This document shows, in pieces, positions 49,201-64,000 of a stretch of DNA of 64,000 nucleotides. Source of the DNA: Hymenobacter sp. YIM 151858-1 (lineage in GTDB: Bacteria > Bacteroidota > Bacteroidia > Cytophagales > Hymenobacteraceae); the NCBI RefSeq assembly GCF_025979705.1, contig NZ_CP110136.1, forward strand, positions 310,001 through 374,000. Direction: 5' to 3'. Position 1 is the stretch's first letter, and each line of letters opens with the position of its first letter. Under the pieces are notes generated by a model, which saw only the letters and a program-made list of their open reading frames with translations, ran no database searches and was not told the DNA's origin. The position numbers were made by a program, and so were the translations under genes.

Positions 49201-49290
49201 GTGTTAGGGCTTAGGTATTAGGGTTTAGGCTGAGGAATATTTAGGCTCGATAACCTAGACCTAACCTCCAATGCCTAAGCCCTAACACCT
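49201..49290. repeat. TTAGGGCTTAGG inverted repeat (second site)
   Basis: GTGTTAGGGCTTAGGTATTAGG on the left faces CCTAAGCCCTAACACCTAA on the right (about 49273-49291), between two convergent genes. Same word family as 17696-17832. It probably acts as a terminator here. Confidence 0.75.
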
Positions 49291-50656
49291 AAATCCCTAC
49301 CGCAATGGCCAGCACGATGGCGGCGGCGGCCAGCAGCAGCAGGAGCAGGTAGAGCGGCAGCACGAAGCGCCACCACTGATCGAAGCGCACGCCGCAGGCG
49401 GCCACAATGGCCATGAGCGCGCCGTTGGTGGGCGTAATCAGCTCGCACAAGCCCGCGCCGTACTGGTACGCCAGCACCGTAACCTGCCGCGACAGGCCCA
49501 GCAAATCCGACAAGGGCGTAAGAATGGGCATGGTAAGCACCGCTTGCCCGCTCACGCTGGGCACCGGCAGGTGCAGGGCCGTGTGCACCCCCAGCATACC
49601 TAGGGCCGAGAGCGTAACCGGCAACTGCGCCAGCGGTGCCGACATGCCGTGCACGATGGTATCGACGATCTGGCCTTGCTCGAGCACCACGAAAATAGCG
49701 CGGGCAAACCCGATGAGCATGCCCGAAAAAGCAATGTCCTTGAAGCCGGCAATGAAGCCTTCGGCCGTGCCCGTGAGGCCCAAGCCACCCACCAGGCCAG
49801 CCGCCACGCCCAGCACAAAAAACAGGGCCGCCATTTGGGTGAAATCCCAGCCCTGCTCCAGCACCCCGTAGGCAAAGTACCCGAAGGTGGCCAGCAGCAA
49901 CAGCAGCACCAGGCCTTGGCGGTTGCCGCCTGGCTGCGTAGCGGTTTCGGCCTCAAGCTCAGGGGCATCGGCCGCGGCACCTAGGGGTGCGGTTTCGCGG
50001 TGGCGCAGGGCGTAGCGCAAGGTGCCGCCAATCCAGATCAGCAGGGCAAGGGCCAGGAATACCAGCCGGAAGCCCAGGCCCGAGAGCAGCGGCAGGCCGG
50101 CCAGCTTTTGCGCAATGCCCACCTGAAACGGGTTGAGCGGGCTGAACGCGGCGCCCACCGCCGCGGCTCCGATACTTACCGCCGCAGCCGTGAGCACGGG
50201 GTAGCGCAGGCGCCGCATCAGCACCAGCAGCACCGGCACCAGGGGCACAATTTCCTCCTGCATGTTTTCGAGGGCGCCCATGGTGGCAAACAGCAGCGCC
50301 ACCACGGGTATCACCAGGGCCTCGCGCCCGCGCAGCCGCTGCACCAGCCAATCGACGCCGCGCCGCAGCGCCCCGGTTTGGTCGACCACCGTAAACGCGC
50401 CGCCGGCCAGAAATACCAGGAAAATAACATCGGCGGCCCCCTGCAACCCGCGCGGAATGGCCGTAACGGCATCGAGCGGCGAAACCGGCGTGGCCGGCAC
50501 CAGGCGGTAGGAGCCGGGTACCACCACTTCGCGCTTGGTCAGGGCATCTTCGCGGCGCTCGAACCGCCCGGCCGGCAGCACATAACTCAGCGCCACGGCC
50601 AACATGATAAAGCCAACCAGCAGCACCAGCGGGTGCGGAAAACGAAACTTGGGCAT
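49289..50656 (-). CDS. YfcC-family membrane transporter
   Basis: 455 residues from the ATG at 50656, with about 11-12 helices. Key segments: FLVFLAGGAFTVVDQTGAL, ALENMQEEIVPLVPVLLVLM (about 116-135), NPFQVGIAQKLAGLPL, and SVSGQAVLTMPILTPLSDLL with AYQYGAGLCELITPTNGALM (about 395-430), the second re-entrant loop typical of this superfamily. YfcC proteins are predicted to move basic amino acids or C4-dicarboxylates. A polar Glu-rich insert lies at about 230-245. It stands alone and faces the hypothetical gene. Confidence 0.85.
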   Translation of the reverse strand: MPKFRFPHPLVLLVGFIMLAVALSYVLPAGRFERREDALTKREVVVPGSYRLVPATPVSPLDAVTAIPRGLQGAADVIFLVFLAGGAFTVVDQTGALRRGVDWLVQRLRGREALVIPVVALLFATMGALENMQEEIVPLVPVLLVLMRRLRYPVLTAAAVSIGAAAVGAAFSPLNPFQVGIAQKLAGLPLLSGLGFRLVFLALALLIWIGGTLRYALRHRETAPLGAAADAPELEAETATQPGGNRQGLVLLLLLATFGYFAYGVLEQGWDFTQMAALFFVLGVAAGLVGGLGLTGTAEGFIAGFKDIAFSGMLIGFARAIFVVLEQGQIVDTIVHGMSAPLAQLPVTLSALGMLGVHTALHLPVPSVSGQAVLTMPILTPLSDLLGLSRQVTVLAYQYGAGLCELITPTNGALMAIVAACGVRFDQWWRFVLPLYLLLLLLAAAAIVLAIAVGI

Positions 50657-50903
50657 GGGTGCAAAAGCAGGTGTGAGCCGCAAAAGAACAAAGCACCGGC
50701 CGAACCGCGCGCCGCGGCACGGAATTCAGGGTGCCGCCTACGGCGCTACTTGCGGCCTGGGTGCTTGGCTGCGAAATGCCCAACGGCAGGCCCGTGGCAT
50801 ACCCATATGCGCTCCTTGACCCAGGCACACGGCCGGGAACCCGCCGCCCGTCAATCGTTGTATCTTCGGTTCTGGTCGGCCGCGCCGTGGTGGCCGTGTT
50901 GTT

Positions 50904-51456: not shown

Positions 51457-53706
51457 TCAAACCCGCACCTTTTGCCGCTTCGGCTCCCGATCGAACCGCT
51501 CCAGCACCAGCGGGAAGATGATGATTTCGCCGAACAGCGCCGCCGCTACCGATACGGCCGTGAGCACGCCGAACAGCTCCACCGTTTTCAGCGAGCCGAA
51601 GCCCATTACGGCGTAGCCGGCAAACAAAATAAGGCTGGTAAGCACAATGGTGGGCCCCACGTGGGTAATGGTGCTGAGCCGGGCCTGGTGCGGCGACTGG
51701 CCCCCGAGCCGGGCCTGCCGGTAATGGTGGATGTAGTGCACCGTATCATCGACGCACAAGCCCAGCACAATGGCCCCGATGCTGGCCGTGGCCGTGTCGA
51801 GGGCAATGCCAAACCAGCCCATTACGCCAAGCAGCACCAGCACCGGAAACAGGTTGGGCACCACCGTGAGCAGCGCCAACCGAAAACTGCGCACGTACAG
51901 CCACACCAGCCCGAACACCATAAAGGCCGATAGCATTAGGCTGTTGGTTTGCGAGGTGGTTACGTACTGCACAATGCGGGCGTACAGGGGCTGGTAGCCC
52001 GCCGGCCGCACCGCGGCCACGTTGCCTAGGGTGTTGCGAGCCATGCGCAAGAGCGTGTCGGTTTTGGCGGTGAGCTGCCGCGCCGAGAGCATAGCGCCCG
52101 AAACGGTGATGCGCCCGGTTTGGCTGGGCTGGTGCATAAACTGCGCGGCCAGCTGCGGGTAATCGGCGGTTAGCTGCGCGTGCACTTTCCGCAGCAGGCT
52201 TTGGCTGCGGAGCGCCGCGCGGCCTTTGCCCGGAAAGCGCGTTTCCAGTCCGGCTTCGTAGAGCGACTGAAAACCGAACACGCGCCCCACGCCGGGCAAG
52301 GTACGGGCCGAATCGGCGAAGGCAGCGGCGGCCTGCACCACGGCGGCATCGGCGAGTTGGTGGCCGGGCTTGGGCTCGATTAGCAGCTCCAGGGGCATAT
52401 AAGGGCCCCAGGTTTTTTCCATGGCCTGGTGGTCGCGCACCACGGCGTGGTTCCGGGGGAAATAACCCAGGGTGTAGGTATCGGCTTGCAGCCGGGTAGC
52501 GCCGGCCGCGGCCAGCAGCACCAGGGCCACTGAGGCCGCCGCAAATACGCCTTTGCGGCCGAGAATTACCTCGTAGAGCCGCGCCAGCCCCGCGCTGGTG
52601 GTGCGCGTGGCCCTAGGTGCGGGCTTGGCGTGGGGCAGTATCAGCACACCCAGCAGGAAGGTGAATAGCAGGCACAGGGCAATACCCAGGGCCGCGAACA
52701 ACCCGAAGTTTTGCAGAATGGCCATGGGGCTGGTAACCAGCGCCAGAAATCCCGCCACCGTGGTAAGCATGGTAGCCAGGCAAGGCGAAAACGTGTTGCG
52801 CAGCGCCCGCAACGCCGACTCCTGCCGCGACATACCCGGTGCGGCCAGCAGGTTGCGCTCGTTGATGACGTGCATGGCATCCATGAAGCCCAGCAGAATC
52901 AGCACCACCGGCAGCAGCACCGTCATCAGGGTCAGCCGGTAACCTAGGGCGCCGTACACGCCCAGCGTTACGTAGGTGGCCAGCCCCACAATGCCCAGCA
53001 CGTAGAGCAGCAGCCAGCCGTTGCGGTAGAGCAAGGCAAACACGGCAAACATCAGCAGGTAGCCCAGGCCCAGAAAAAAGCCGAAATCCTGCTGCGACAG
53101 GGCATTCAGGCCGGCGTAAATCACGCCCACGCCGCCCAGGTAAGCATGCTCGCGGGGCATGTGGGCGTACACCGTGCGCTGCACGGCGGCCACAATGTCG
53201 CCGCGCTGCGCATCGAAGTCGGGCAGCTGGCGCATGTGCACCAGCAAGCGCGCCGTGCGGTAATCGGGGCTGAAAAGCTGCTCGCGCAGTACCGCGTGGT
53301 TGGCCAGCAGCTGCCGCACGTCGGCGGGCTGGGTGTGGGTCCCGAGCAAGGGTTGGGCGCTGCCACCTAGGGCTGCCCGCGTGGGCACCACGGCATTGCC
53401 GGGCCCGATTACGCCCGCCACCGCCGGCAGGCGCTCCAGCGCCTGGCTAAGCCGCCGGAAGCGCCGGAAGTACGCGGGCGTCAGCACCGACTGCTCGCCG
53501 TGCACCACCACAATGATTACTTCGTCGTTGCCGAAGCGCTGCTGAAAGTCGCGGTAAGCCTGCAGGCTCGCGTCGCCTTCCAGAAACCAGGCCTTCAGGC
53601 TGTTATCAACCTGCACGGCCGCCCGCACGCCTGGCCACAACAACGCGCACATCACCAGCACCAACCCGAGCAGCCAAAAACGAAATTTGTGTAATCCCTC
53701 GATCAT
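51457..53706 (-). CDS. MMPL/RND-type exporter
   Basis: 749 residues from the ATG at 53706. One helix at about 9-29, then a large periplasmic domain (about 30-210), a bundle of five helices (about 210-365), a second extracytoplasmic domain (about 395-570) and five more helices to the C-terminus. GLCVDDTVHYIHHYRQAR (about 651-668) and LILLGFMDAMHVINERN (about 273-289) carry the conserved intramembrane Asp residues of proton-coupled MMPL pumps. Such pumps move lipids, hopanoids or polyketide-like products. Divergent from the UbiA-like gene (40-bp gap), which suggests shared regulation. Confidence 0.9.
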   Translation of the reverse strand: MIEGLHKFRFWLLGLVLVMCALLWPGVRAAVQVDNSLKAWFLEGDASLQAYRDFQQRFGNDEVIIVVVHGEQSVLTPAYFRRFRRLSQALERLPAVAGVIGPGNAVVPTRAALGGSAQPLLGTHTQPADVRQLLANHAVLREQLFSPDYRTARLLVHMRQLPDFDAQRGDIVAAVQRTVYAHMPREHAYLGGVGVIYAGLNALSQQDFGFFLGLGYLLMFAVFALLYRNGWLLLYVLGIVGLATYVTLGVYGALGYRLTLMTVLLPVVLILLGFMDAMHVINERNLLAAPGMSRQESALRALRNTFSPCLATMLTTVAGFLALVTSPMAILQNFGLFAALGIALCLLFTFLLGVLILPHAKPAPRATRTTSAGLARLYEVILGRKGVFAAASVALVLLAAAGATRLQADTYTLGYFPRNHAVVRDHQAMEKTWGPYMPLELLIEPKPGHQLADAAVVQAAAAFADSARTLPGVGRVFGFQSLYEAGLETRFPGKGRAALRSQSLLRKVHAQLTADYPQLAAQFMHQPSQTGRITVSGAMLSARQLTAKTDTLLRMARNTLGNVAAVRPAGYQPLYARIVQYVTTSQTNSLMLSAFMVFGLVWLYVRSFRLALLTVVPNLFPVLVLLGVMGWFGIALDTATASIGAIVLGLCVDDTVHYIHHYRQARLGGQSPHQARLSTITHVGPTIVLTSLILFAGYAVMGFGSLKTVELFGVLTAVSVAAALFGEIIIFPLVLERFDREPKRQKVRV

Positions 53707-53746
53707 GTGGGTGCGATAGGGCGGCCGTGGGTGTAATTTGCTTGCC

Positions 53747-54646
53747 ATGAATTGGCGCCACTTTCCTGCTTACCTGCACGAGCGTTTTCCGCTCGTCAAC
53801 ATGGCTTTGTTTGCCATCTTGTTTCTCACGGTGTTGGCCGTGGCGCAGGCCACGCAACCCGCAAAACCGGCAGGGTTCGGCCCGCAGGAAGCCGTGGGCA
53901 TTCTGGCTACAATATCCTTCTTTTTCCGGCTCCGGGTATTCGACGAAATCAAAGATTACGCCTCCGATCTGGCGCACTTTCCGCACCGTGTGCTGCAGTC
54001 GGGCCGCGTTAGCCTAGGTCAGCTGAAGCGCGTGGCCTGGGCAGGGCTGGTGCTGGAGGCGGCGTGGTCGGCGTGGGTGGGCTGGGGCACGCTGCTGGCC
54101 TGGGCGCTGGTGGTGGGCTACAGCCTGCTGATGCGCTACGAGTTTGGCGTGCGCGAGTGGCTGCGGGCCCGGCTGGTGCTCTACGCCTTCACGCACCTGC
54201 TCATCATGCCGCTGATTATCGGGTGGGTGTGGTCGGCCTACGCCGCGCGGCCGCTGCTCTCGGTGCCGTTGCTGCTGCTGGCGCTGCTCAGCCTGCTCGG
54301 AGGCTTGTCGTTCGAAATTGCCCGCAAAATCAAAACGCCCGAAGCCGAGCGCGCCGGCGTCGATTCGTACTCGCGCACGCTGGGCTACGCGGGGGCCATC
54401 GTGGCCGTGCTGGTGGTGCTGCTGGCCGGGGTGCTGGTGCAGGGCTACTTGCTGAATTTGCTGGCCACGCGCCTGTGGCCCTTTGCCCTGATGGGCGTGC
54501 TGTACCTGGTAACGGTAGGCACCTACCTGGGCAGCTTGGCCAAGCCGCGCACCAAAACCCTGAAAGTGGCCGAGCTGCTGGTGTCGCTGTTCATGCTCAC
54601 GAGCTACGTGTCGATTATCGTCGAAATTGCCGGCCGGCTCTGGTAA
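53747..54646 (+). CDS. UbiA-family prenyltransferase-like membrane protein
   Basis: 299 residues from the ATG at 53747. About eight helices. RLRVFDEIKDYASDL (about 63-77) matches the first Asp-rich NDxxDxxxD motif of UbiA; SFEIARKIKTPEAERAGVDSY (about 186-206) fits the second DxxxD-like loop, though here Glu replaces the first Asp. Could transfer a prenyl or decaprenyl-phosphate-linked group. The product is unknown. It is divergent from an MMPL exporter and upstream of a Rph-like gene, with a repeat-filled gap of 376 bp. Confidence 0.8.
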   Translation: MNWRHFPAYLHERFPLVNMALFAILFLTVLAVAQATQPAKPAGFGPQEAVGILATISFFFRLRVFDEIKDYASDLAHFPHRVLQSGRVSLGQLKRVAWAGLVLEAAWSAWVGWGTLLAWALVVGYSLLMRYEFGVREWLRARLVLYAFTHLLIMPLIIGWVWSAYAARPLLSVPLLLLALLSLLGGLSFEIARKIKTPEAERAGVDSYSRTLGYAGAIVAVLVVLLAGVLVQGYLLNLLATRLWPFALMGVLYLVTVGTYLGSLAKPRTKTLKVAELLVSLFMLTSYVSIIVEIAGRLW

Positions 54647-55022: not shown

Positions 55023-57593
55023 ATGATTCTGACCTCCGCCGAACCGCAGCCCCCACGCCACGCCGTGGGCGGCAAAGCGGCTGGTTTGTACCGTTTGCAA
55101 GCCACCGGCATGCGCGTGCCCGATTTTGTGGTGCTGCCAGCCGAGCAATTCGATGCGCTCTTCCTAGGTATCAGCACCGACGAAGCTGGCCTGCAGCGGC
55201 GCCGGGAAAAGCTCCTGCACTTTCGCCTCGGCGAGGCCGAGCGCAGCACGCTCTCGGCTCAATTGCAGCAGTGGAATTTTCCGCAGCAGCCGGTGGTGGT
55301 ACGTTCCTCAGTAGCCGATGAAGACGGCCAGCAGGCAGCCTTCGCGGGGCTGATGGACACCTTTATGAACCTCACCACGCCCGAAGAGGTGGAGCAGGCA
55401 ATTGCGCGCTGCGCCGCCAGCGCGTACTCGGAGCGGGCCGTGGCCTACCGCCGGCAAAAAGGCTTGCCGCTGGCGGCGCGCCCGGCGGTTATCGTTCAGC
55501 GGCAAATCACGCCTGCGGCCAGCGGGGTGCTGTTTTCCACCTTCCCCGAATATCCGCAGGAGCTGGCGGTGCATGCCGTGTGGGGCTTTGGCGAGGGGCT
55601 GGTGAGTGGCGCCCTCGCGCCCGACGAGTTCTACTTCAGCAAGCAAACCGGGCAGGTGCACCGGCAAACCATTGCCAGCAAGGATCAGCAGTACGTGGCG
55701 CGCCCCGCGGGTGGGCTTCTGGTGCAGGCCGTGCCGCCCCCGTTGCAGCACGAGCCCTGCCTGAGCGCCGCACACCTAGGGCAACTGTTCGGTATCGGTA
55801 CGCAGCTGGAGCAGGCCCTGGGCGGCCCGCAGGACGTGGAGTTTGTGGTGGCGGGCGAGCAGCTGTGGGTGGTGCAGGCGCGGCCCATTACGCAGCCCAT
55901 TCCGGAGGTGGTGGTGTACGACAACTCCAACATTCAGGAAAGCTACTGCGGCGTAACCACGCCGCTTACCTTCAGCTTTGCGCAGCGCGCCTACGCCACC
56001 GTGTATCGCCAAACCATGCACGCGCTGGGTTTGCCCGCGGCCCAGATTGCGGCGCAGGAGCCGGTAATAACGCAACTGCTGGGGCTGGTGAAAGGGCGTA
56101 TTTACTACAACATCAACAACTGGTACCGCGGCCTGCAGCTGCTGCCTTCGTTTCGGCAAAACAAGGCCGATATGGAGCGCATGATGGGCCTCGAAGAGCC
56201 CGTTGATTTCGTGCAGACGCAGGAGAAAACCCTGGCGGCCAAGTTGCGCATGGCCCCGCGGCTGGTGCTCAACCTCTCGCGGTTGCTGTGGGCCTTTTCG
56301 CGCCTGAACGAGGCCGTGCGGGCGTTTCACGCGCGTTTCGAGCAGCATTACCGGCGCTTCTACCGGTTGCAGCTAAGCCGGCTAAGCGCCGATGCCTTGC
56401 TGGCCGAAAAAAAGCGCCTCGACGACGAGCTGCTCGGCAACTGGAGCACGCCCATCGTCAACGATTTCTACGTGATGATGACCAACGGCCGGGCCGTGCG
56501 CCAACTGCAACAGGCCGGCGCCCCCGAGCCCGAGGCCCTGCTGCGCCGCTACCTGGCCGGCGACCAGGATCTGGCCAGCACGCAGCCCACCAAGCACATG
56601 CTGGCCCTGGCCGAGCAGGTGCGGCCCAATGCCGCGCTGCGCCAGCTCATTTTGGCGCAGCGCAGCGATTTGCCCGCCCAGGTGCAGCAGCTAGCGCCCG
56701 CGTTTGCCGAGCAGGTAGCCGAGTTCATCAGCCGCTACGGCGACCGTACGGTGGGCGAGCTGAAGCTGGAAACCCAAACCATGCGCACCAACCCGCAGAT
56801 ATTCTACCAATACCTGCGCAACTACCTTACCGCCGAGGCGCCGGCCACCCTAGGTACCCACGGCAGCCAGCAGGTGCTCGGCCAGGCCCAGGCCGAAGTA
56901 GAGGCTTTGCTGCAGGGCAAATCGTGGGTGCTGCAGCGGCAGGTGCGCCGGCAGCTGCGGCAGCTGCAGCAAGCCATCCGGCACCGCGAGTCGCTGCGGC
57001 TGGAGCGCACACGGCTGTTTGGCATGTACCGGGCCTTGTACCTGGCCATAGGCGTAAAGCTTGCCGCTGCGGGCCTGCTGCAAGAGCCCCGACAGATTTT
57101 TTACCTCACCGAAGACGAGGCCACCTCTACGCTAAAGGATGGCTTTCTGGCTGATTTGCCGGCTACCTTGGCCACGCGGCAGCAGGAGTTCAGCGCGTAC
57201 CAGCGCGCCGATGTGCCTGCCCGCGTGGTTGTACCCTCGCCGCCGCTCACGCCGGCCGAGCACGACGAAACCAGCGAGGCTGCCATGCGCGGCACGGGCT
57301 GCTACCCCGGCCAGGCAAGCGGCGAGGTGCTGGTTATCACCTCGCCCGAAGACAACCTAGGCGTGGCCGGAAAAATCGTGTGTGCGCTGCGCACCGACCC
57401 CGGTTGGGCGGCCCTGTTTCCGGCCTGCCGCGCCGTCATCATCGAAAAAGGGTCGTCGTTGTCGCACTCGGTTATTCTGCTGCGCGAGCTGGGCATTCCT
57501 ACCATCATCAACGTGCCGGGCATCACCAAGCGCCTGCGCAGCGGCCAGTTCGTACGCCTCGATGGCGCCACGGGCGAAATAGAACTGATGTAG
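55023..57593 (+). CDS. PEP-synthase-like / rifampicin-phosphotransferase-like enzyme
   Basis: 856 residues, close to the 867 of Listeria Rph. An ATP-grasp PPDK N-terminal domain (about 1-295) contains VGGKAAGLYRL, VVVRSSVADEDGQQAAFAGL and FVVAGEQLWVVQARPITQ. A helical central domain (about 300-765) has no match to PpsA. The swivelling phosphohistidine domain at the C-terminus (about 768-856) has KGSSLSHSVILLRELGIP, with His815 as phospho-carrier. It would use ATP to phosphorylate His, then an unknown acceptor bound by the middle domain. Self-resistance to a rifamycin-like or other aromatic product, or a biosynthetic step, are both possible. Confidence 0.82.
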   Translation: MILTSAEPQPPRHAVGGKAAGLYRLQATGMRVPDFVVLPAEQFDALFLGISTDEAGLQRRREKLLHFRLGEAERSTLSAQLQQWNFPQQPVVVRSSVADEDGQQAAFAGLMDTFMNLTTPEEVEQAIARCAASAYSERAVAYRRQKGLPLAARPAVIVQRQITPAASGVLFSTFPEYPQELAVHAVWGFGEGLVSGALAPDEFYFSKQTGQVHRQTIASKDQQYVARPAGGLLVQAVPPPLQHEPCLSAAHLGQLFGIGTQLEQALGGPQDVEFVVAGEQLWVVQARPITQPIPEVVVYDNSNIQESYCGVTTPLTFSFAQRAYATVYRQTMHALGLPAAQIAAQEPVITQLLGLVKGRIYYNINNWYRGLQLLPSFRQNKADMERMMGLEEPVDFVQTQEKTLAAKLRMAPRLVLNLSRLLWAFSRLNEAVRAFHARFEQHYRRFYRLQLSRLSADALLAEKKRLDDELLGNWSTPIVNDFYVMMTNGRAVRQLQQAGAPEPEALLRRYLAGDQDLASTQPTKHMLALAEQVRPNAALRQLILAQRSDLPAQVQQLAPAFAEQVAEFISRYGDRTVGELKLETQTMRTNPQIFYQYLRNYLTAEAPATLGTHGSQQVLGQAQAEVEALLQGKSWVLQRQVRRQLRQLQQAIRHRESLRLERTRLFGMYRALYLAIGVKLAAAGLLQEPRQIFYLTEDEATSTLKDGFLADLPATLATRQQEFSAYQRADVPARVVVPSPPLTPAEHDETSEAAMRGTGCYPGQASGEVLVITSPEDNLGVAGKIVCALRTDPGWAALFPACRAVIIEKGSSLSHSVILLRELGIPTIINVPGITKRLRSGQFVRLDGATGEIELM

Positions 57594-57702: not shown

Positions 57703-58914
57703 TTAGTCGTGGGCGTTCTTTAGGGCTTGCAGCTGCTGCCCCAGGGCCTCAATCTGCGCTTGCTGCTCTTTCATGGCTTCCACCAGCACGGCGGTCAGGC
57801 GCCCGTAGTCAAGGCTTTGGTGGCCACGCGCATCGGTGCACACCAGCTCGGGGTAGTGCTCGGCTACCTCCTGCGCTACCAAGCCCACCTGTGGGTCGGT
57901 GGCAAACCGCTGAGCCGGAAACTCCTTGGCGCGCCACCGGAAGCGTACGCCCTGCAGCGCCAGCACCTTGCCCAAGGCATTTTGCAGGGGCTGCACATCG
58001 GTTTTGAATTGCGCATCCGAGAGCTGGGTGATAGCGCCGCTGGCCAGTACGTCGCCGATTACGTGCAGCGTAGCCTGGGGCGCGGGCGTGCCAATGCCCA
58101 CCCGCACGGCATGGGGCCCCGTGCCACCTAGCACCAAACTGTTGCTTTGGCTAACCTTTGCGCGGAAGCCAATGGCGCCCGCGTTTTGCAGGTTGCCCTC
58201 GCTGGGGCCTGCCCAAAAGCCAAGGGCTATGTTTTTGCTGCCGCTGGTATTGGATGCGCCGCTGGCCGCCCCCACAAAGGTGTTGTGCTCACCCGTCGAT
58301 TCGATGCCGCTGGCCGCGCCCAGGTAAGTGTTGTCGTTGCTGCTGGTGTTCTTGATGCCGCTGTTGGCGCCTGCAAACGTGTTGTTTTTGCCGTCGGTGT
58401 TGGCTTGGCCACAAGCCGAGCCGGTAAAGGTATTGGAGCTGCCGGTGGTGTTGGCCTTCCCGCTATTGCGCCCGCAAAACGTGTTGCTGATGCCGGTAGT
58501 GTTGGCCGTTCCGCTTGCGCCTCCCACAAAGGTGTTGTCGAGGCCCGAGGTGTTGCTCCGGCCGCTGTGCGTGCCCACAAAGGTGTTGCCGCTGCCTGTG
58601 GTATCGGCCGTGGCGGGGCCGCTCCGATACCCCAAATACACATTCCGGTTGTTGTGCTGGCCCAGGTTCAGCCCACCTTGGGCCGTTACGCCCACGCCTA
58701 TAACGCCGGCGGCAAGTTCGTGTCCGCTGCCCGTAACGGCCGATCTGCCAATGTTCAGGGTCGGGTCGGCGAGCGGGGCCTCGGCCGCGTTGGCACGCCG
58801 CTTTTTCCGGCCGTTGGCTCGGCCGTTTTTGCTGTTTGACTTCAGCCACAAAGCGGCCAGGGCAGAGCTAGCCAAAAGGGGTAGGGCATAAGCCCAGGGT
58901 GCCGTGCTTCGCAT
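57703..58914 (-). CDS. Tail-fibre-domain protein with S74 intramolecular chaperone and repeat region
   Basis: 403 residues from the ATG at 58914. One N-terminal helix (about 5-24), a basic stretch, then about nine repeats of 16-17 residues of the form GxxNTFxGxxSGxxNTT (about 115-265). A linker with LHVIGDVLASGAI precedes a C-terminal S74 domain: LSDAQFKTDVQPLQNALGKV (about 305-324) where autocleavage normally occurs before the Ser, then RFATDPQVGLVAQEVAEHYP, ending in a coiled coil (EAMKEQQAQIEALGQQL). Such proteins form trimeric surface fibres. Despite the name there is no phage gene nearby. Confidence 0.82.
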   Translation of the reverse strand: MRSTAPWAYALPLLASSALAALWLKSNSKNGRANGRKKRRANAAEAPLADPTLNIGRSAVTGSGHELAAGVIGVGVTAQGGLNLGQHNNRNVYLGYRSGPATADTTGSGNTFVGTHSGRSNTSGLDNTFVGGASGTANTTGISNTFCGRNSGKANTTGSSNTFTGSACGQANTDGKNNTFAGANSGIKNTSSNDNTYLGAASGIESTGEHNTFVGAASGASNTSGSKNIALGFWAGPSEGNLQNAGAIGFRAKVSQSNSLVLGGTGPHAVRVGIGTPAPQATLHVIGDVLASGAITQLSDAQFKTDVQPLQNALGKVLALQGVRFRWRAKEFPAQRFATDPQVGLVAQEVAEHYPELVCTDARGHQSLDYGRLTAVLVEAMKEQQAQIEALGQQLQALKNAHD

Positions 58915-59134
58915 AGGATTGAGGGATAACGTGAATACTGCGTGCAAATCGGCGGTAATGAATGTGTATTTTTTCGTGCTGTCAATATGATTATTTCGGT
59001 TTGGTGTGCCTCCGCGGAAAATGATCCGGGCGGGCAGGGGCGTGGCATGGTTAGCACCCCAACAGCTGCCCGGTTCCGTATTGGCGCGTGCCGCGCCAGC
59101 GCCGAGTGCTGCTCAGCGCTACCTTGCATCCACC

Positions 59135-60205
59135 ATGCCTCAGCTACTCCGCATACCTTACCAAGGCCAACTGCCCGACTGGTTCTGGCAGGTGCCGGCG
59201 CGCGTTTACCACCACCAGCCTTTTCGGCCCGACGAGAACCCCGCCGTAACCGAGCAGCTTTTTGCGCACGAGGCCACGCGCAACGGCATTGTGCTTTTCG
59301 GCCACCACGACGCCACGCTGCGCCTGGCCGGCATCTTTCCCGAGAACAGCCCCGATGCCTACTTTGGCTTTTGGGAAACGCTGCATGATACTGCCGCCAA
59401 CGAAGTCGCCTTTGCCGCCTTGGCCGAGGAGGCCCGCCAACGTGGTTACAGCCGCCTGGTGGGCCCGCTTAACTTCAGCACTTACCACGCCTACCGCCTG
59501 CGCCTGGGCGAGCCGCCCTCGTGGGGGCATTTCGATCGGGAACCCCTGAACCCTACCTACTACTCCGAGCTTCTCGCCCGCCTAGGTTTTCAGCCGATCA
59601 GCACCTTCGAGAGCCGACTGATTCGGCCTGAAACCGTGCCCGCGGTGTTTGCCGACAAGGACATGCTGCTGCGGGAACTGGGCAAAATTCCGTACGACTT
59701 CATTCCGCTCACGCCCGAAACCTGGGAGCAGCACGAGCACGCTATTTACGAGCTGGTACAAGCCATTTTCGGTGCCAACCCGGCTTATCGGCCCGTGTCG
59801 TTCGAGCAATTCCGGCTGCTTTACAACCGCCGTTATGCCGAGCGCCTGTGTCCGTGCACCTCGGTGCTGTTTCGCGACCAGGCCAACGGGCATTTGGCGG
59901 CGCTGAGCTTTTGCCACCCCAACTACCAGGCGCTGCAACTGCCTGCCACCGAACACCCCGTGTTCGAACGCGACTTTGCCAAGCTGCCCCGCAAAGTGCT
60001 GCTGGCCAAAACCGTAGGCGTGCACCCCGACTACCGCCAACGCGGGCTGATGTCGTACATGGGAGCCTACGGCATGGTGCACTTCCGCGAGCGGTACGAG
60101 GAAGTAATCTTCTGCCTGATGCGCACCGGCAATTACTCCCTGCACTTTACCGATGGCCTCGATTACGAGGTGGCGCAGTACGCGCTGTTTGGGAAAGAGC
60201 TGTAG
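59135..60205 (+). CDS. GNAT-fold N-acyltransferase-like protein
   Basis: 356 residues from the ATG at 59135; the in-frame upstream ATG adds 43 low-complexity residues. Two GNAT-like halves: an N-terminal domain with ARQRGYSRLVGPLNFSTYHAYRL, and a C-terminal domain with TVGVHPDYRQRGLMSYMGAYGM (about 295-316), the acetyl-CoA pyrophosphate loop as HPDYRQRGL. No Cys or His catalytic residue can be singled out. Substrate is unknown. It lies on the opposite strand to the adjacent AMP-ligase/DUF3419/kinase operon, with the two convergent across a repeat. Confidence 0.75.
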   Translation: MPQLLRIPYQGQLPDWFWQVPARVYHHQPFRPDENPAVTEQLFAHEATRNGIVLFGHHDATLRLAGIFPENSPDAYFGFWETLHDTAANEVAFAALAEEARQRGYSRLVGPLNFSTYHAYRLRLGEPPSWGHFDREPLNPTYYSELLARLGFQPISTFESRLIRPETVPAVFADKDMLLRELGKIPYDFIPLTPETWEQHEHAIYELVQAIFGANPAYRPVSFEQFRLLYNRRYAERLCPCTSVLFRDQANGHLAALSFCHPNYQALQLPATEHPVFERDFAKLPRKVLLAKTVGVHPDYRQRGLMSYMGAYGMVHFRERYEEVIFCLMRTGNYSLHFTDGLDYEVAQYALFGKEL

Positions 60206-60498: not shown

Positions 60499-61701
60499 CT
60501 AGTTTCTGATCTTAGTCGCGACTATGACTTGCGCTTGGGAGCGGAGCGGTTGCAGCTGCGAAAGGGTGTTGAAGTAGCTCTGCACCACGCGCGGCAGGAA
60601 GGGGTAGGGGCTGACGGTGTGCGCCATCATATACATGCCCAGGCGGTGAAGGCCGAAGTCGAGGGCGGCCAGGCCGGCAATGTGGTTGAACTCCTCCGCG
60701 TTCGGGAACAGGCCCGTGAGGGCGTGCAATTGCTGGCGGTAGTACTCCAGGTAAGCTGGGCGGAGGTGGTAGCGGTCGGCGTCGAGCACGAACGTGAGCA
60801 GCTCCACCACATCGTACTGCGGCACGTGGTAGGTGGCCAGCTCCCAATCGTAGGCGCACAACTGCAAACCTAGGGCCGTGCGCCGGAAACAGGTGTTGCG
60901 CGGGTTCAGGTCGTTGTGGATAAGCGTTTTCGGGTGCGCCGCCAGCTCAGCCCAATACTCCGGAATGGCCCGGATGGCTTGCTGCAGCTGCGCCGCCTGC
61001 GCCGGGCCGTAAAGCTCCGGAAAGTGCGCGGCGGCATTGCTTAGCAACGCTTCCCACAAAGGCGCAAGCGCCTGCATGTATTCTGCGGAAGGCTGATCGG
61101 GCCAAACGGTGCGCGAGTGCCCGGGCTGCAGATGGGCGGCATGCCACTCGGCCAAGGCACCTAGGGCCGCGCGCAGGTGCTCGTCGGTCCACTGGTCGGG
61201 CGTCATCACCGCGTTCAGCAGCTCCACCTCGGCGAGGTATTCCATCAGAATGGCGTGCACGTCGTGGGCCTGGTCGTGATGCAAGCCCCATATTTCGGGC
61301 ATCAGCGGGGCCGTGCCGTACTCGGCGTACACCTGCAGCTCGCGCTGGTGGGTGTGGAAAAAGCCGGTGCGAGCGGCGTAGGTAGGGTACACCGCCGCCA
61401 GCTCGCCGCCGCAGGCCTGGGCCAGGCTCGTGAGCATGGCCGATACTTCGCGGCCGGGCGGCTTTAGCTTCAGCACCATGTCGCGCGTCAGCAGTTGCCC
61501 GTCGGCCTCAAAGGTTACGCGTAGGCCGAAGTGGCCTACCGGGCGGTTGGTTTGGCCGGCCGTGAGCACCACCAAAATGCTGGCCGAGTTATCGAGCGGT
61601 AAGGGGCTTACCGCGTGCACCCGAATACCGCGCTCGGGCGCGTGTGCCTGCATCAGCTGCTCGATGAAAGCCGCGGAACAGTAGTGGGCTGCGCTATGCA
61701 T
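60499..61701 (-). CDS. APH/choline-kinase-fold phosphotransferase
   Basis: 400 residues from the ATG at 61701; the upstream frame lies inside the DUF3419 gene. The Brenner motif LIHNDLNPRNTCF (about 265-277) and the metal-binding DWELATY (about 290-296) show an active aminoglycoside/choline kinase fold. A Lys-containing strand DMVLKLKPPGREVSAML supplies the ATP-side Lys. The unusual C-terminal third is helical with many aromatic residues. Its start overlaps the stop of the upstream gene by 8 bases, so it is coupled to DUF3419. Likely substrate is a small alcohol or amino alcohol; cannot be specified. Confidence 0.82.
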   Translation of the reverse strand: MHSAAHYCSAAFIEQLMQAHAPERGIRVHAVSPLPLDNSASILVVLTAGQTNRPVGHFGLRVTFEADGQLLTRDMVLKLKPPGREVSAMLTSLAQACGGELAAVYPTYAARTGFFHTHQRELQVYAEYGTAPLMPEIWGLHHDQAHDVHAILMEYLAEVELLNAVMTPDQWTDEHLRAALGALAEWHAAHLQPGHSRTVWPDQPSAEYMQALAPLWEALLSNAAAHFPELYGPAQAAQLQQAIRAIPEYWAELAAHPKTLIHNDLNPRNTCFRRTALGLQLCAYDWELATYHVPQYDVVELLTFVLDADRYHLRPAYLEYYRQQLHALTGLFPNAEEFNHIAGLAALDFGLHRLGMYMMAHTVSPYPFLPRVVQSYFNTLSQLQPLRSQAQVIVATKIRN

Positions 61702-62839
61702 GGGCCGAAACCAGAGCGGGAGCAGAAGCGGGAGTGGGTACCAGGGCGGTGTCGAGCACGCGCACATCGCGGAAGTAGTAGCAAGCGCCGGGCTGCCGAC
61801 CTAGGGCCAGCGAGGCGGTGCGGTCGAGGGGCACGCCGGGCACCACGTGGGAGGCGTGCGCTTGCAGCAGGTTCCAGAACACGAGGCGCAGGGGCTGCTG
61901 CGGCCGGCTCATGAGGGCGCGGCTGGTGCGCAGGAACTCGGCCGGACTTACGTACTCGAAGATGTTGGACAGGCTGGCTTTGCAGATGTGCTGGCCGGCC
62001 TCAGAGAGCAAAAACGCGGTGGCCTCGCCGGTAACTACCGTAAGCTTGCCTTGCTGCAGCTGGGCGCGCAGGCGGTAGAAATTCTGCTGCTGGTAGCAGG
62101 GCGGCAGAATGGCCTCGGGCAGGTTTTCGGGCCCGAGAAAGAAGAACCGGAAAAAGAAGTTGTCGCGCAGCAGCTCCGTGGACACGTGCCGCACCAAGCG
62201 CCGGTAAAACGCCTGCCCACCCGATTCGGGCGCGTAGCGGAACAGCTTCGTATCGCGGCCGCGGCTAAGGTTGGCGTCGTCGAAGTAGCTGATAAACTGA
62301 TCCTCGAACGCGGTGCCGTGCAGCTCATCCATAAACCAGCGCCGCTGCTCGGCCAGTCTGTCGAAGGCCGCTAGCTGGCGCACCTTGGCTTGCAGCTCGG
62401 GGCTGAGGGTAGGCAGAAAACCTAGCAGGTAGCTTTCGAGCCGACCAGCCGGCAAAATACCCGCCGCGTGGCTCTCGAAAAACGGTGCCCAGTAGGCGCG
62501 CAGCTCCTCGGGCAAGGTAGGCTCGAGGGCGTGCCAGGTAGGCAGCACGGCGGCGGGGCCATCGAGGCCGAGCAAGGCGCGCAGCACCTGCGGCTCGTGG
62601 TGCAAAATGAGGTACTGCTTAAAGCGCAGCAGGTGGTTTTGCACCGGGTTCAGGTCGATGGCCGTTACGCTGCGCGGTTCCTGCAGCAGTGCGTTGAGGG
62701 CATTGCACCCAGCCGAGCTGATGACCAGCACGTCGTCGGTGGCCTGCAATTGCAGCGCTTGGCACAGGGTGGTGCTGCTTTCCCACACCAGCGAGTAGCG
62801 GATGCGGTCGAGGGCTACGTTATAGAATTCGGAGTGCAT
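61694..62839 (-). CDS. DUF3419 (BtaA-like) aminocarboxypropyl transferase
   Basis: 381 residues. N-terminal segment IRYSLVWESSTTLCQAL (about 13-29) and the SAM-site-like stretch VLVISSAGCNALNALLQEP (about 37-55) with TAIDLNPVQNHLLRFKQYL (about 59-77) are the DUF3419 hallmarks, known from BtaA. BtaA moves the 3-amino-3-carboxypropyl group of S-adenosylmethionine to diacylglycerol for betaine lipids. No BtaB-type N-methyltransferase is in the window, so the acceptor or final product may differ. Flanked by an AMP-ligase 6 bp upstream and a kinase that overlaps its end. Confidence 0.85.
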   Translation of the reverse strand: MHSEFYNVALDRIRYSLVWESSTTLCQALQLQATDDVLVISSAGCNALNALLQEPRSVTAIDLNPVQNHLLRFKQYLILHHEPQVLRALLGLDGPAAVLPTWHALEPTLPEELRAYWAPFFESHAAGILPAGRLESYLLGFLPTLSPELQAKVRQLAAFDRLAEQRRWFMDELHGTAFEDQFISYFDDANLSRGRDTKLFRYAPESGGQAFYRRLVRHVSTELLRDNFFFRFFFLGPENLPEAILPPCYQQQNFYRLRAQLQQGKLTVVTGEATAFLLSEAGQHICKASLSNIFEYVSPAEFLRTSRALMSRPQQPLRLVFWNLLQAHASHVVPGVPLDRTASLALGRQPGACYYFRDVRVLDTALVPTPASAPALVSAHA

Positions 62840-62845
62840 CAGGTG

Positions 62846-64000
62846 TTAGCGGAGCTGGTCGTAGAGAATCTTGGACAGGTGACGGCGGTCTACAGGCAGA
62901 TGCCGCCGGGGCAGTACGCGGTTGCAAAGGCCCGCCGGAAAATGTTGAGCCAGCACCGCCCGCACAGCCGCTTCGGAGGCCGTGCCTTGGTAGTAGATGT
63001 CGAAGCCGGTAGCGGTGGCGCGGGCTGCGGCGCGCTCAACGCCTACTAGCATTTGCAGCACGTGCTCGATCTGGTAGTGCTGCACGCCTAGGTGAATGGC
63101 CTCGTTGCCTTGGCGGCCGGTAAGCCACAGCCGGTTTTGCTCGTCGAAGTAGCCGAAGTCGCCGGTGTGCAGCCACGCGCCCGGCTCGGCAGCCACGTGC
63201 GCGCCTTGCACGCACACTTCGCCTACCTGGTAGTGGCTGCCGTTGGGCAGCACCACCGCACCTAGGGGCTGCAGGCGGCAGTTGAGGCCAGCTTGCACGG
63301 GGCCCACGCAGTAGCCGCCGCGCGGGTTGGTGGCAGTGGCGGCCGCCCGTACGGCAATGGGTTCGGCCTCGGAAGAACCGTAAATCATGTACACCTCGGC
63401 ATCGGCAAAACAAGTGCGCAGGCGCTGCAGCAAGCTCTCGGGCACCGGCGAGCCACCCACACCTAGGGCCCGCACGTGCGGCAGGGGAGTGGGGTGCTGC
63501 TCGAGGTAGCCGCACAGCGCCGCGAAGTAGAACACGTTGCCCGTAAGGGTTTCGACCTGTGTGGCCAGCAGCTGCCGCACCACGCGCGCGGGTTCGAGGT
63601 CGGCTAGCTGGCCCCAGGGCACGTCGGGCAGCACGCTCACGGCACCCACCGATAGGTTATGCAGCAAGATGTTCGGGAACAGCGGGAAGTCGCGCTGACC
63701 TTGCCACGGCGGAAACGCCTGCTTCAGCACCTGGTGCTGGGCTGTGAGCACCGCGTGGCTGCGCCGAATAGCCTTGGCCTGCCCCGTAGAGCCCGAGCTG
63801 TGCGACACCAGCGCTGGCTGCGTGGGCGGCACGGCTTGCGGCGGCAGCAGTTCGGCGGTGCCTAGGTGCTTGGGTGCCCCGAGCAGGCGCAGACCTAGGC
63901 CGCGCGCCAGCCAGCCATACCGCCGCGCCCCTTTGCTCGGCACTAGCGCAGCGCCAACGCCGTTATGGCGCAGCAGCTTCAGCAGCCCTGTGGCCGATGC
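62846..64000 (-). CDS. AMP-binding (ANL) adenylating ligase, 5' end cut by the window
   Basis: At least 385 residues; the frame is open to the right edge, so an ATG at 63943 is internal, not the start. ANL motifs: A3 SHSSGSTGQAKAIRRSH, A5 VYMIYGSSEAEPIAVRA, A7/A8 HTGDFGYFDEQNRLWLTGRQGN; the C-terminal hinge and Lys region (SKILYD) are present. Adenylates a carboxylic acid and forms an acyl-CoA or acyl-carrier product. Six bases separate its stop from the DUF3419 start, so the three genes form one operon. Confidence 0.86.
   Translation of the reverse strand, partial: ASATGLLKLLRHNGVGAALVPSKGARRYGWLARGLGLRLLGAPKHLGTAELLPPQAVPPTQPALVSHSSGSTGQAKAIRRSHAVLTAQHQVLKQAFPPWQGQRDFPLFPNILLHNLSVGAVSVLPDVPWGQLADLEPARVVRQLLATQVETLTGNVFYFAALCGYLEQHPTPLPHVRALGVGGSPVPESLLQRLRTCFADAEVYMIYGSSEAEPIAVRAAATATNPRGGYCVGPVQAGLNCRLQPLGAVVLPNGSHYQVGEVCVQGAHVAAEPGAWLHTGDFGYFDEQNRLWLTGRQGNEAIHLGVQHYQIEHVLQMLVGVERAAARATATGFDIYYQGTASEAAVRAVLAQHFPAGLCNRVLPRRHLPVDRRHLSKILYDQLR

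Follow-up and report, generated by a model that had tools for sequence, protein, structure and literature searches.

Near the right-hand end of a 64,000-nucleotide stretch of Hymenobacter DNA (hereafter the window, G000:C1:310001-374000, from a 4.6-Mb genome in three contigs) lies a locus built around a DUF3419 protein, a member of the BtaA superfamily predicted to transfer the 3-amino-3-carboxypropyl group of S-adenosylmethionine (SAM). It is nearly certain that this protein, an AMP-forming ligase, an APH-fold kinase, a tandem-GNAT acyltransferase, a dikinase, a UbiA-superfamily prenyltransferase and, usually, an MMPL exporter serve one pathway, and the locus is kept together in at least two phyla, Bacteroidota and Pseudomonadota. 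As to what the pathway makes, our preferred reading, to which we give a little less than an even chance, is that a six-enzyme core (UbiA, dikinase, DUF3419, a lipid-alcohol kinase, tandem GNAT and AMP-ligase) and the MMPL protein produce an exported, SAM-derived, N-acylated isoprenoid aminolipid. The initial annotation of the window had proposed the ligase, DUF3419 and kinase genes as a candidate new pathway; its idea that an enzyme of the aminocarboxypropyl-transferase family stands at the centre of an undescribed pathway holds up, and the three-gene unit has proved too narrow. The genes of the locus, in window coordinates, are these:

62846 to 64000, continuing past the window edge to about 64282 (ATG) or 64390 (longest open reading frame), minus strand: AMP-forming ligase of the ANL superfamily (PF00501, 4e-17), first gene of operon A.
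61694 to 62839, minus strand: DUF3419 protein (BtaA superfamily), predicted SAM:3-amino-3-carboxypropyl transferase (PF11899, 3e-38).
60499 to 61701, minus strand: APH-fold kinase (PF01636, 7e-13; EcKL, 5.5e-08).
59006 to 60205, likely start 59135, plus strand: tandem-GNAT acyltransferase, assigned from its AlphaFold2 (AF2) fold and found in all complete type-I clusters (the window's own type, described below).
55023 to 57593, plus strand: Rph/PEPS/PigC-like dikinase with PPDK_N, middle and C-terminal swivelling His domains (PF01326, 8e-58; PF00391, 9e-18).
53738 to 54646, plus strand: UbiA-superfamily intramembrane prenyltransferase (PF01040, 3.9e-08).
51457 to 53748, minus strand: MMPL/HAE3 RND-type lipid exporter (PF03176, 2.9e-29; TIGR00921, 1.2e-53).

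Relatives have this set of genes grouped time and again, rearranged loci included, which is more than chance would give. Ligase, DUF3419, kinase, GNAT, dikinase and UbiA are found together in all 15 loci that hold a relative of the window's DUF3419, with MMPL following in most, and again in further genome loci besides these. Three gene orders are seen (that of the window, that of L010 and L131, and that of L011 and L016), so the linkage has survived rearrangement, and the gene set is retained across Hymenobacteraceae and Spirosomaceae. Scattering of the genes in relatives, which would have spoken against the initial annotation, was looked for, and the genes instead stay together. An operon of three genes only is ruled out, since GNAT, dikinase and UbiA are equally conserved; UbiA, the Rph-like gene and MMPL, which lie where they had first been placed but had been left as either part of the locus or mere neighbours, belong to it, UbiA and dikinase as core members and MMPL as a usual one. 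The position first given for GNAT is also correct.

Profile searches extend this pattern beyond close relatives. Of 242 Cytophagales genomes, 17 are UbiA-positive, and a matching DUF3419 is present in 16 of these (adjoining where contigs allow), the lone exception being a 69%-complete metagenome-assembled genome (MAG); among 396 Bacteroidota genomes a further nine (non-self) are positive, and all nine have DUF3419 within about 6 kb. The APH kinase family (E<1e-150) is present in exactly 8 of the 242 Cytophagales genomes, namely those with a type-I DUF3419. On a plasmid of Roseinatronobacter sp. S2 (Pseudomonadota), UbiA, dikinase, DUF3419, a VTE5-like kinase, GNAT and ligase form one overlapping operon. 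Pairwise divergences of the five shared proteins correlate with one another: rho is 0.85-0.91 when up to 31 loci are compared and 0.68-0.79 for type I by itself. The counts given here come from related genomes and do not represent independent events. An apparently decayed cluster, the rest of which has been lost, is found at L133:6665-10668, where DUF3419 and a kinase remain beside a DcuC transporter resembling the window neighbour at 49289-50683.

The ligase, DUF3419 and kinase genes are confirmed to form one operon, and their coupling, as first annotated, is borne out by the DNA, by the Pfam matches and by intact motifs: the ligase and DUF3419 genes are 6 bp apart (...CGCTAA-CACCTG-ATG...), and the kinase ATG at 61701 overlaps the DUF3419 TAG stop by 8 bp (ATGCATAG). 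Extension of the contig placed the remaining 282-390 bp of the ligase outside the window, with a likely ATG at window position 64282 giving a protein of 478 residues (complete gene, L002:3846-5390); beyond it lie genes for a glyoxalase-fold protein and a hydrolase, neither of which is a conserved partner when the extended contig is compared with relatives. The ligase has an intact A3 P-loop (SSGSTG) and C-terminal A10 lysine, both kept in 13 orthologs. Its closest NCBIfam model is PRK09274/OleC-like, under the cut-off, and it falls well short of the OleC beta-lactone synthetase equivalog (103.7 bits against a cut-off of 900), with no OleA, OleB or OleD partners recognised among the recurrent genes. 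The kinase belongs to the APH fold by its PF01636 match, and its signature HNDLNPRN...YDWE (the HxDxxxxN...D motif) is intact and conserved. PDB sequence searches with DUF3419, GNAT and the APH kinase gave no usable relatives.

The tandem GNAT matched no Pfam family; its AF2 model (pLDDT 91) has as best PDB matches tandem GNATs, mycothiol synthase, MprF/LPG synthase and N-myristoyltransferase. The dikinase (856 residues) has the Pfam architecture of rifampin phosphotransferase, PPDK_N and a C-terminal phospho-His domain with no phosphoenolpyruvate (PEP)-binding domain, and the phospho-histidine His815 is conserved across all three cluster types; it scores 251.5 bits against the NCBIfam Rph equivalog, whose cut-off is 999, and likewise misses the PigC and PEPS cut-offs. 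UbiA-superfamily membership holds, the window protein scoring 33.3 bits to PF01040 against a cut-off of 34.2 and homologs in equivalent loci 35.1-36.3; the Asp-rich DExxDxxxD and ExxRK motifs are invariant, and there is a weak match to the Methanocaldococcus jannaschii digeranylgeranylglyceryl phosphate (DGGGP) synthase. MMPL is found in most type-I loci and in the type-III locus L154, and was not found in type-II loci or on the Roseinatronobacter plasmid.

Several further genes lie among these. An S74-chaperone-domain protein (57703-58947) is encoded between GNAT and dikinase in the window and was ruled out as a pathway member, being found only in the closest relatives. Some Hymenobacter strains have two extra genes, one of them a small GNAT, between the kinase and the tandem GNAT (L005:10474-11945 and the equivalent spot in L006, L007 and L018). 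In a fragmented MAG, GNAT and ligase share one 824-residue reading frame (L122:1934-4405), which is probably a frameshift and possibly a fusion; because the junction looks like a frameshift, it was not used as linking evidence.

Three architectures of the cluster can be distinguished:

Type I (the window, Hymenobacter, Pontibacter, Fibrella, Rudanella): APH kinase, with MMPL usual.
Type II (other Cytophagales families and other Bacteroidota): HMG-CoA reductase (HMGR), UbiA, dikinase, DUF3419, a VTE5/SEC59-like membrane kinase of about 220 residues, GNAT and ligase.
Type III (L153 and L154): a thioester-reductase-like NAD_binding_4 protein, UbiA, dikinase, GNAT, a phosphatidylserine (PS)-decarboxylase homolog and DUF3419.

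The kinase slot is thus filled by three families, APH, VTE5/SEC59-like and DagK-type, the type-III loci having DagK in L153 and a VTE5-like kinase in L154; in some loci the type-II kinase is fused to a further membrane domain. Two of the three families are lipid-alcohol kinases in known cases, and the sharing of one slot therefore points to a lipid-alcohol substrate, rather than to the phosphorylation of a head group that had first been suggested. HMGR lies within the operon in most type-II loci, where it may be the sole HMGR match of the genome (G480, G552, G074, G261, G333) or a second copy (G467, G214, G121); that of the window genome is located elsewhere. In both type-III genomes the cluster paralog comes in addition to an ordinary PS decarboxylase encoded at another site; seven other genomes have one. 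In the f26 type-II operons, an SRPBCC protein (Polyketide_cyc2 in L147) is encoded between GNAT and ligase (L147:16620-17195, L148:4638-5210).

The DUF3419 protein at the centre of the locus scores 132 bits to PF11899 (cut-off 28.2), and its SAM motifs SAGCN and DLNPVQ are intact and conserved; the WE, GCN and D-N-x-x-Q positions are common to the cluster proteins and canonical BtaA. Its AF2 model is confident (mean pLDDT 90.7), with weak structural matches to SAM-dependent methyltransferase folds and no close solved structure found. In a tree of 73 proteins the cluster DUF3419s group together, along with one orphan-contig and one remnant sequence, and outside the separate 30-member clade (100/100 support) that holds the BtaB-linked proteins. 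BtaB-type methyltransferases adjoin BtaA in four control loci, and a BtaB profile gives matches of 1e-56 to 1e-100 in five control genomes, one of them (G144) not in the profile's building set. Neither the window genome nor any other cluster genome tested gave a BtaB ortholog with this profile, the best generic methyltransferase reaching 3.5e-20, in keeping with the first observation that no methyltransferase is at hand to finish a betaine lipid.

In place of BtaB, non-canonical DUF3419 loci have a GNAT, drawn from two families: that of the tandem GNAT, with a homolog in L156 (4e-36), and an apparently unrelated family in L032, L033, L157, L162 and L163. The simplest common reading is that these GNATs acylate the amine added by DUF3419, replacing BtaB methylation. 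GNAT occupies the BtaB slot, and the early suggestion of it as an acylating partner is plausible. In L156, which lacks UbiA and dikinase and whose DUF3419 is sister to the cluster clade, a 620-residue fusion of a PEMT/ICMT-like methyltransferase with DUF3419 lies between a DagK-type kinase and the window-homologous GNAT (L156:7003-10870). In L032:6100-12600, L033:8400-13400 and L157:4687-8661, DUF3419 and the unrelated GNAT accompany acyl-ACP reductase-like and aldehyde-deformylating-oxygenase-like proteins, with a fatty acid desaturase also in L032 and L033, which suggests another undescribed lipid pathway. Finally, a very divergent DUF3419 and a GNAT-like protein form two-gene arrangements at L162:6545-8771 and L163:5309-7541.

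The aminolipid pathway that we favour is built on the genes present and their linkage, on conserved catalytic residues, on a DUF3419 separate from BtaA and on the absence of BtaB; its substrates, order of steps, acyl donor, export cargo and product are predictions. UbiA would make a lipid alcohol by joining an isoprenyl chain and a polar acceptor, and to this alcohol DUF3419 would transfer the 3-amino-3-carboxypropyl (homoserine) group of SAM; the ligase may activate an acyl group that GNAT then places on the new alpha-amine, capping the amine that BtaB would trimethylate in betaine lipids. Kinase and dikinase would phosphorylate or activate lipid intermediates, and MMPL would export the finished aminolipid. 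The isoprenoid part is proposed because HMGR sits in the operon of most type-II loci, the SAM-derived amino acid because the DUF3419 SAM motifs are intact and a dedicated PS-decarboxylase paralog occurs in both type-III genomes, N-acylation because canonical BtaA loci have BtaB where non-canonical DUF3419 loci have GNAT, and export because MMPL occurs in type I and in L154. More tentatively still, the locus may define a portable new class of membrane or exported lipid that is isoprenoid, has a SAM-derived amino-acid head group, and undergoes N-acylation in place of methylation, with decarboxylation to an aminopropyl head group as the alternative in some lineages.

A number of points weigh against this scheme. 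The dikinase has no obvious role in it; not every locus has MMPL, HMGR or the ligase, the last being absent from type-III loci; and the enzyme substrates, including the UbiA acceptor and prenyl length, are predicted. The type-II kinase, which we take to be VTE5/SEC59-like from a resemblance in motifs, has a sub-threshold CTP_transf_1 match (8.7e-4, in one member only) and a weak structure match to CdsA. In view of the fusion in L156, some relatives may methylate their product. PcrB, the geranylgeranylglyceryl phosphate (GGGP) synthase, is found in genomes that have the cluster and in genomes that lack it, and was undetected in two type-II (f56) genomes; an archaeal-type glycerol ether is therefore not required, and UbiA as a DGGGP synthase fed by the PcrB product is unsupported.

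Several other outcomes can be envisioned for the same genes. The leading rival places the transferred group on a lipid phosphate: the kinase would make the phosphate, DUF3419 would add aminocarboxypropyl there or on a neighbouring hydroxyl, and the product, phosphatidylserine-like but one carbon longer and made without activation by cytidine diphosphate (CDP), would be decarboxylated in type III to a 3-aminopropyl (propanolamine) lipid. A lipid kinase is indeed always linked to DUF3419, even in the L133 remnant and the UbiA-less L156, and the PS-decarboxylase paralog shares the operon with DUF3419 in both type-III genomes; we nevertheless consider this route unlikely, as the decarboxylase is limited to those two genomes, dikinase and ligase are left unexplained, and we know of no SAM aminocarboxypropyl transfer onto phosphate. 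It is distinctly unlikely that kinase and dikinase instead recharge a prenol to the isoprenoid diphosphate used by UbiA, as VTE5 and VTE6 phosphorylate phytol twice to its diphosphate, so that a meroterpenoid results, with DUF3419, GNAT and ligase modifying its acceptor. The VTE5-like kinase and dikinase do share an operon with UbiA, and HMGR provides an isoprenoid tie, but one that points to de novo supply and not salvage; moreover, the VTE5-like kinase is replaceable by APH or DagK, no aromatic-acceptor gene is conserved, and in L156 the kinase, DUF3419 and GNAT persist without UbiA or dikinase.

The remaining alternatives concern DUF3419 itself. Altered chemistry (methyl or aminopropyl transfer, or SAM cyclisation), which would remove the locus from aminocarboxypropyl metabolism, could be accommodated by the lack of a close solved structure and by the long branch (2.04 changes per site) of the type-I proteins within their clade apart from BtaA; it is quite improbable in view of the SAM motifs and other positions held in common with canonical BtaA, and of the PS-decarboxylase paralog, which fits an alpha-amino acid product. 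The BtaB profile survey and the DUF3419 tree led us to reject ordinary betaine-lipid synthesis. That a BtaA making diacylglyceryltrimethylhomoserine (DGTS) merely lies among unrelated genes is extremely improbable: PF11899 membership would allow it, but the cluster genomes have no BtaB ortholog where the controls have one beside BtaA, and the separate DUF3419 clade is constantly linked to six other genes across phyla.

Literature searches on DUF3419, on aminocarboxypropyl groups together with prenyltransferases and on Hymenobacter homoserine lipids, which covered few subscription papers and are not proof of novelty, returned no description of the locus, and DUF3419 proteins that fall outside the BtaA clade are not known to have an assigned product. 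Many Cytophagales species descriptions list "unknown aminolipids" and "unknown lipids". As a genetically defined cassette of six enzymes, found in many cultured strains of Hymenobacter and Pontibacter as well as on a plasmid, the locus offers a route to finding its lipid; the GNAT in place of BtaB, the three kinase families and the dedicated PS-decarboxylase paralog predict mass-spectrometry targets. If the aminolipid scheme is right, it would add one more outcome to the BtaA reaction and would provide a head group like that of phosphatidylserine or ornithine lipids with no need for CDP-activation or a free amino acid.

Several known systems come close to the locus. The Ebo cluster, with UbiA-297/EboC, likewise holds an orphan UbiA in an operon conserved among Bacteroidota and further phyla, and an Ebo-type identity was ruled out because the recurrent partners lack the EboA, B, D and E kinds as described (PMC9235831). 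The dikinase resembles rifampin phosphotransferase, PigC and PEP synthase in its ATP-grasp-like PPDK_N and C-terminal phospho-His domains, yet falls below all three equivalog cut-offs. Archaeal isoprenoid ether lipids share the UbiA superfamily (the M. jannaschii DGGGP synthase being the only solved relative found) and the HMGR linkage, but here there is no GGGP synthase at the locus and the head-group enzymes are unrelated. As in tocopherol-type pathways, a VTE5-like membrane kinase and UbiA occur in one type-II operon, although without aromatic-acceptor or cyclase genes, with the dikinase for VTE6, and with DUF3419 and GNAT added. Bacteroidota make N-acylated amino-acid lipids (ornithine and glycine lipids), and the proposed head group would similarly be N-acylated by an acyltransferase; unlike theirs, its amino acid would come from SAM and take shape on the lipid, and would not be drawn from the free pool, an isoprenoid part would be present, and no OlsB/GlsB-type pair is recognised. 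Finally, the locus shares with the BtaA/BtaB pathway of DGTS a DUF3419 enzyme with a conserved SAM site, a lipid context and translational coupling, but its DUF3419 belongs to another clade, and instead of BtaB it brings together GNAT, lipid kinase, UbiA, dikinase, ligase and exporter.

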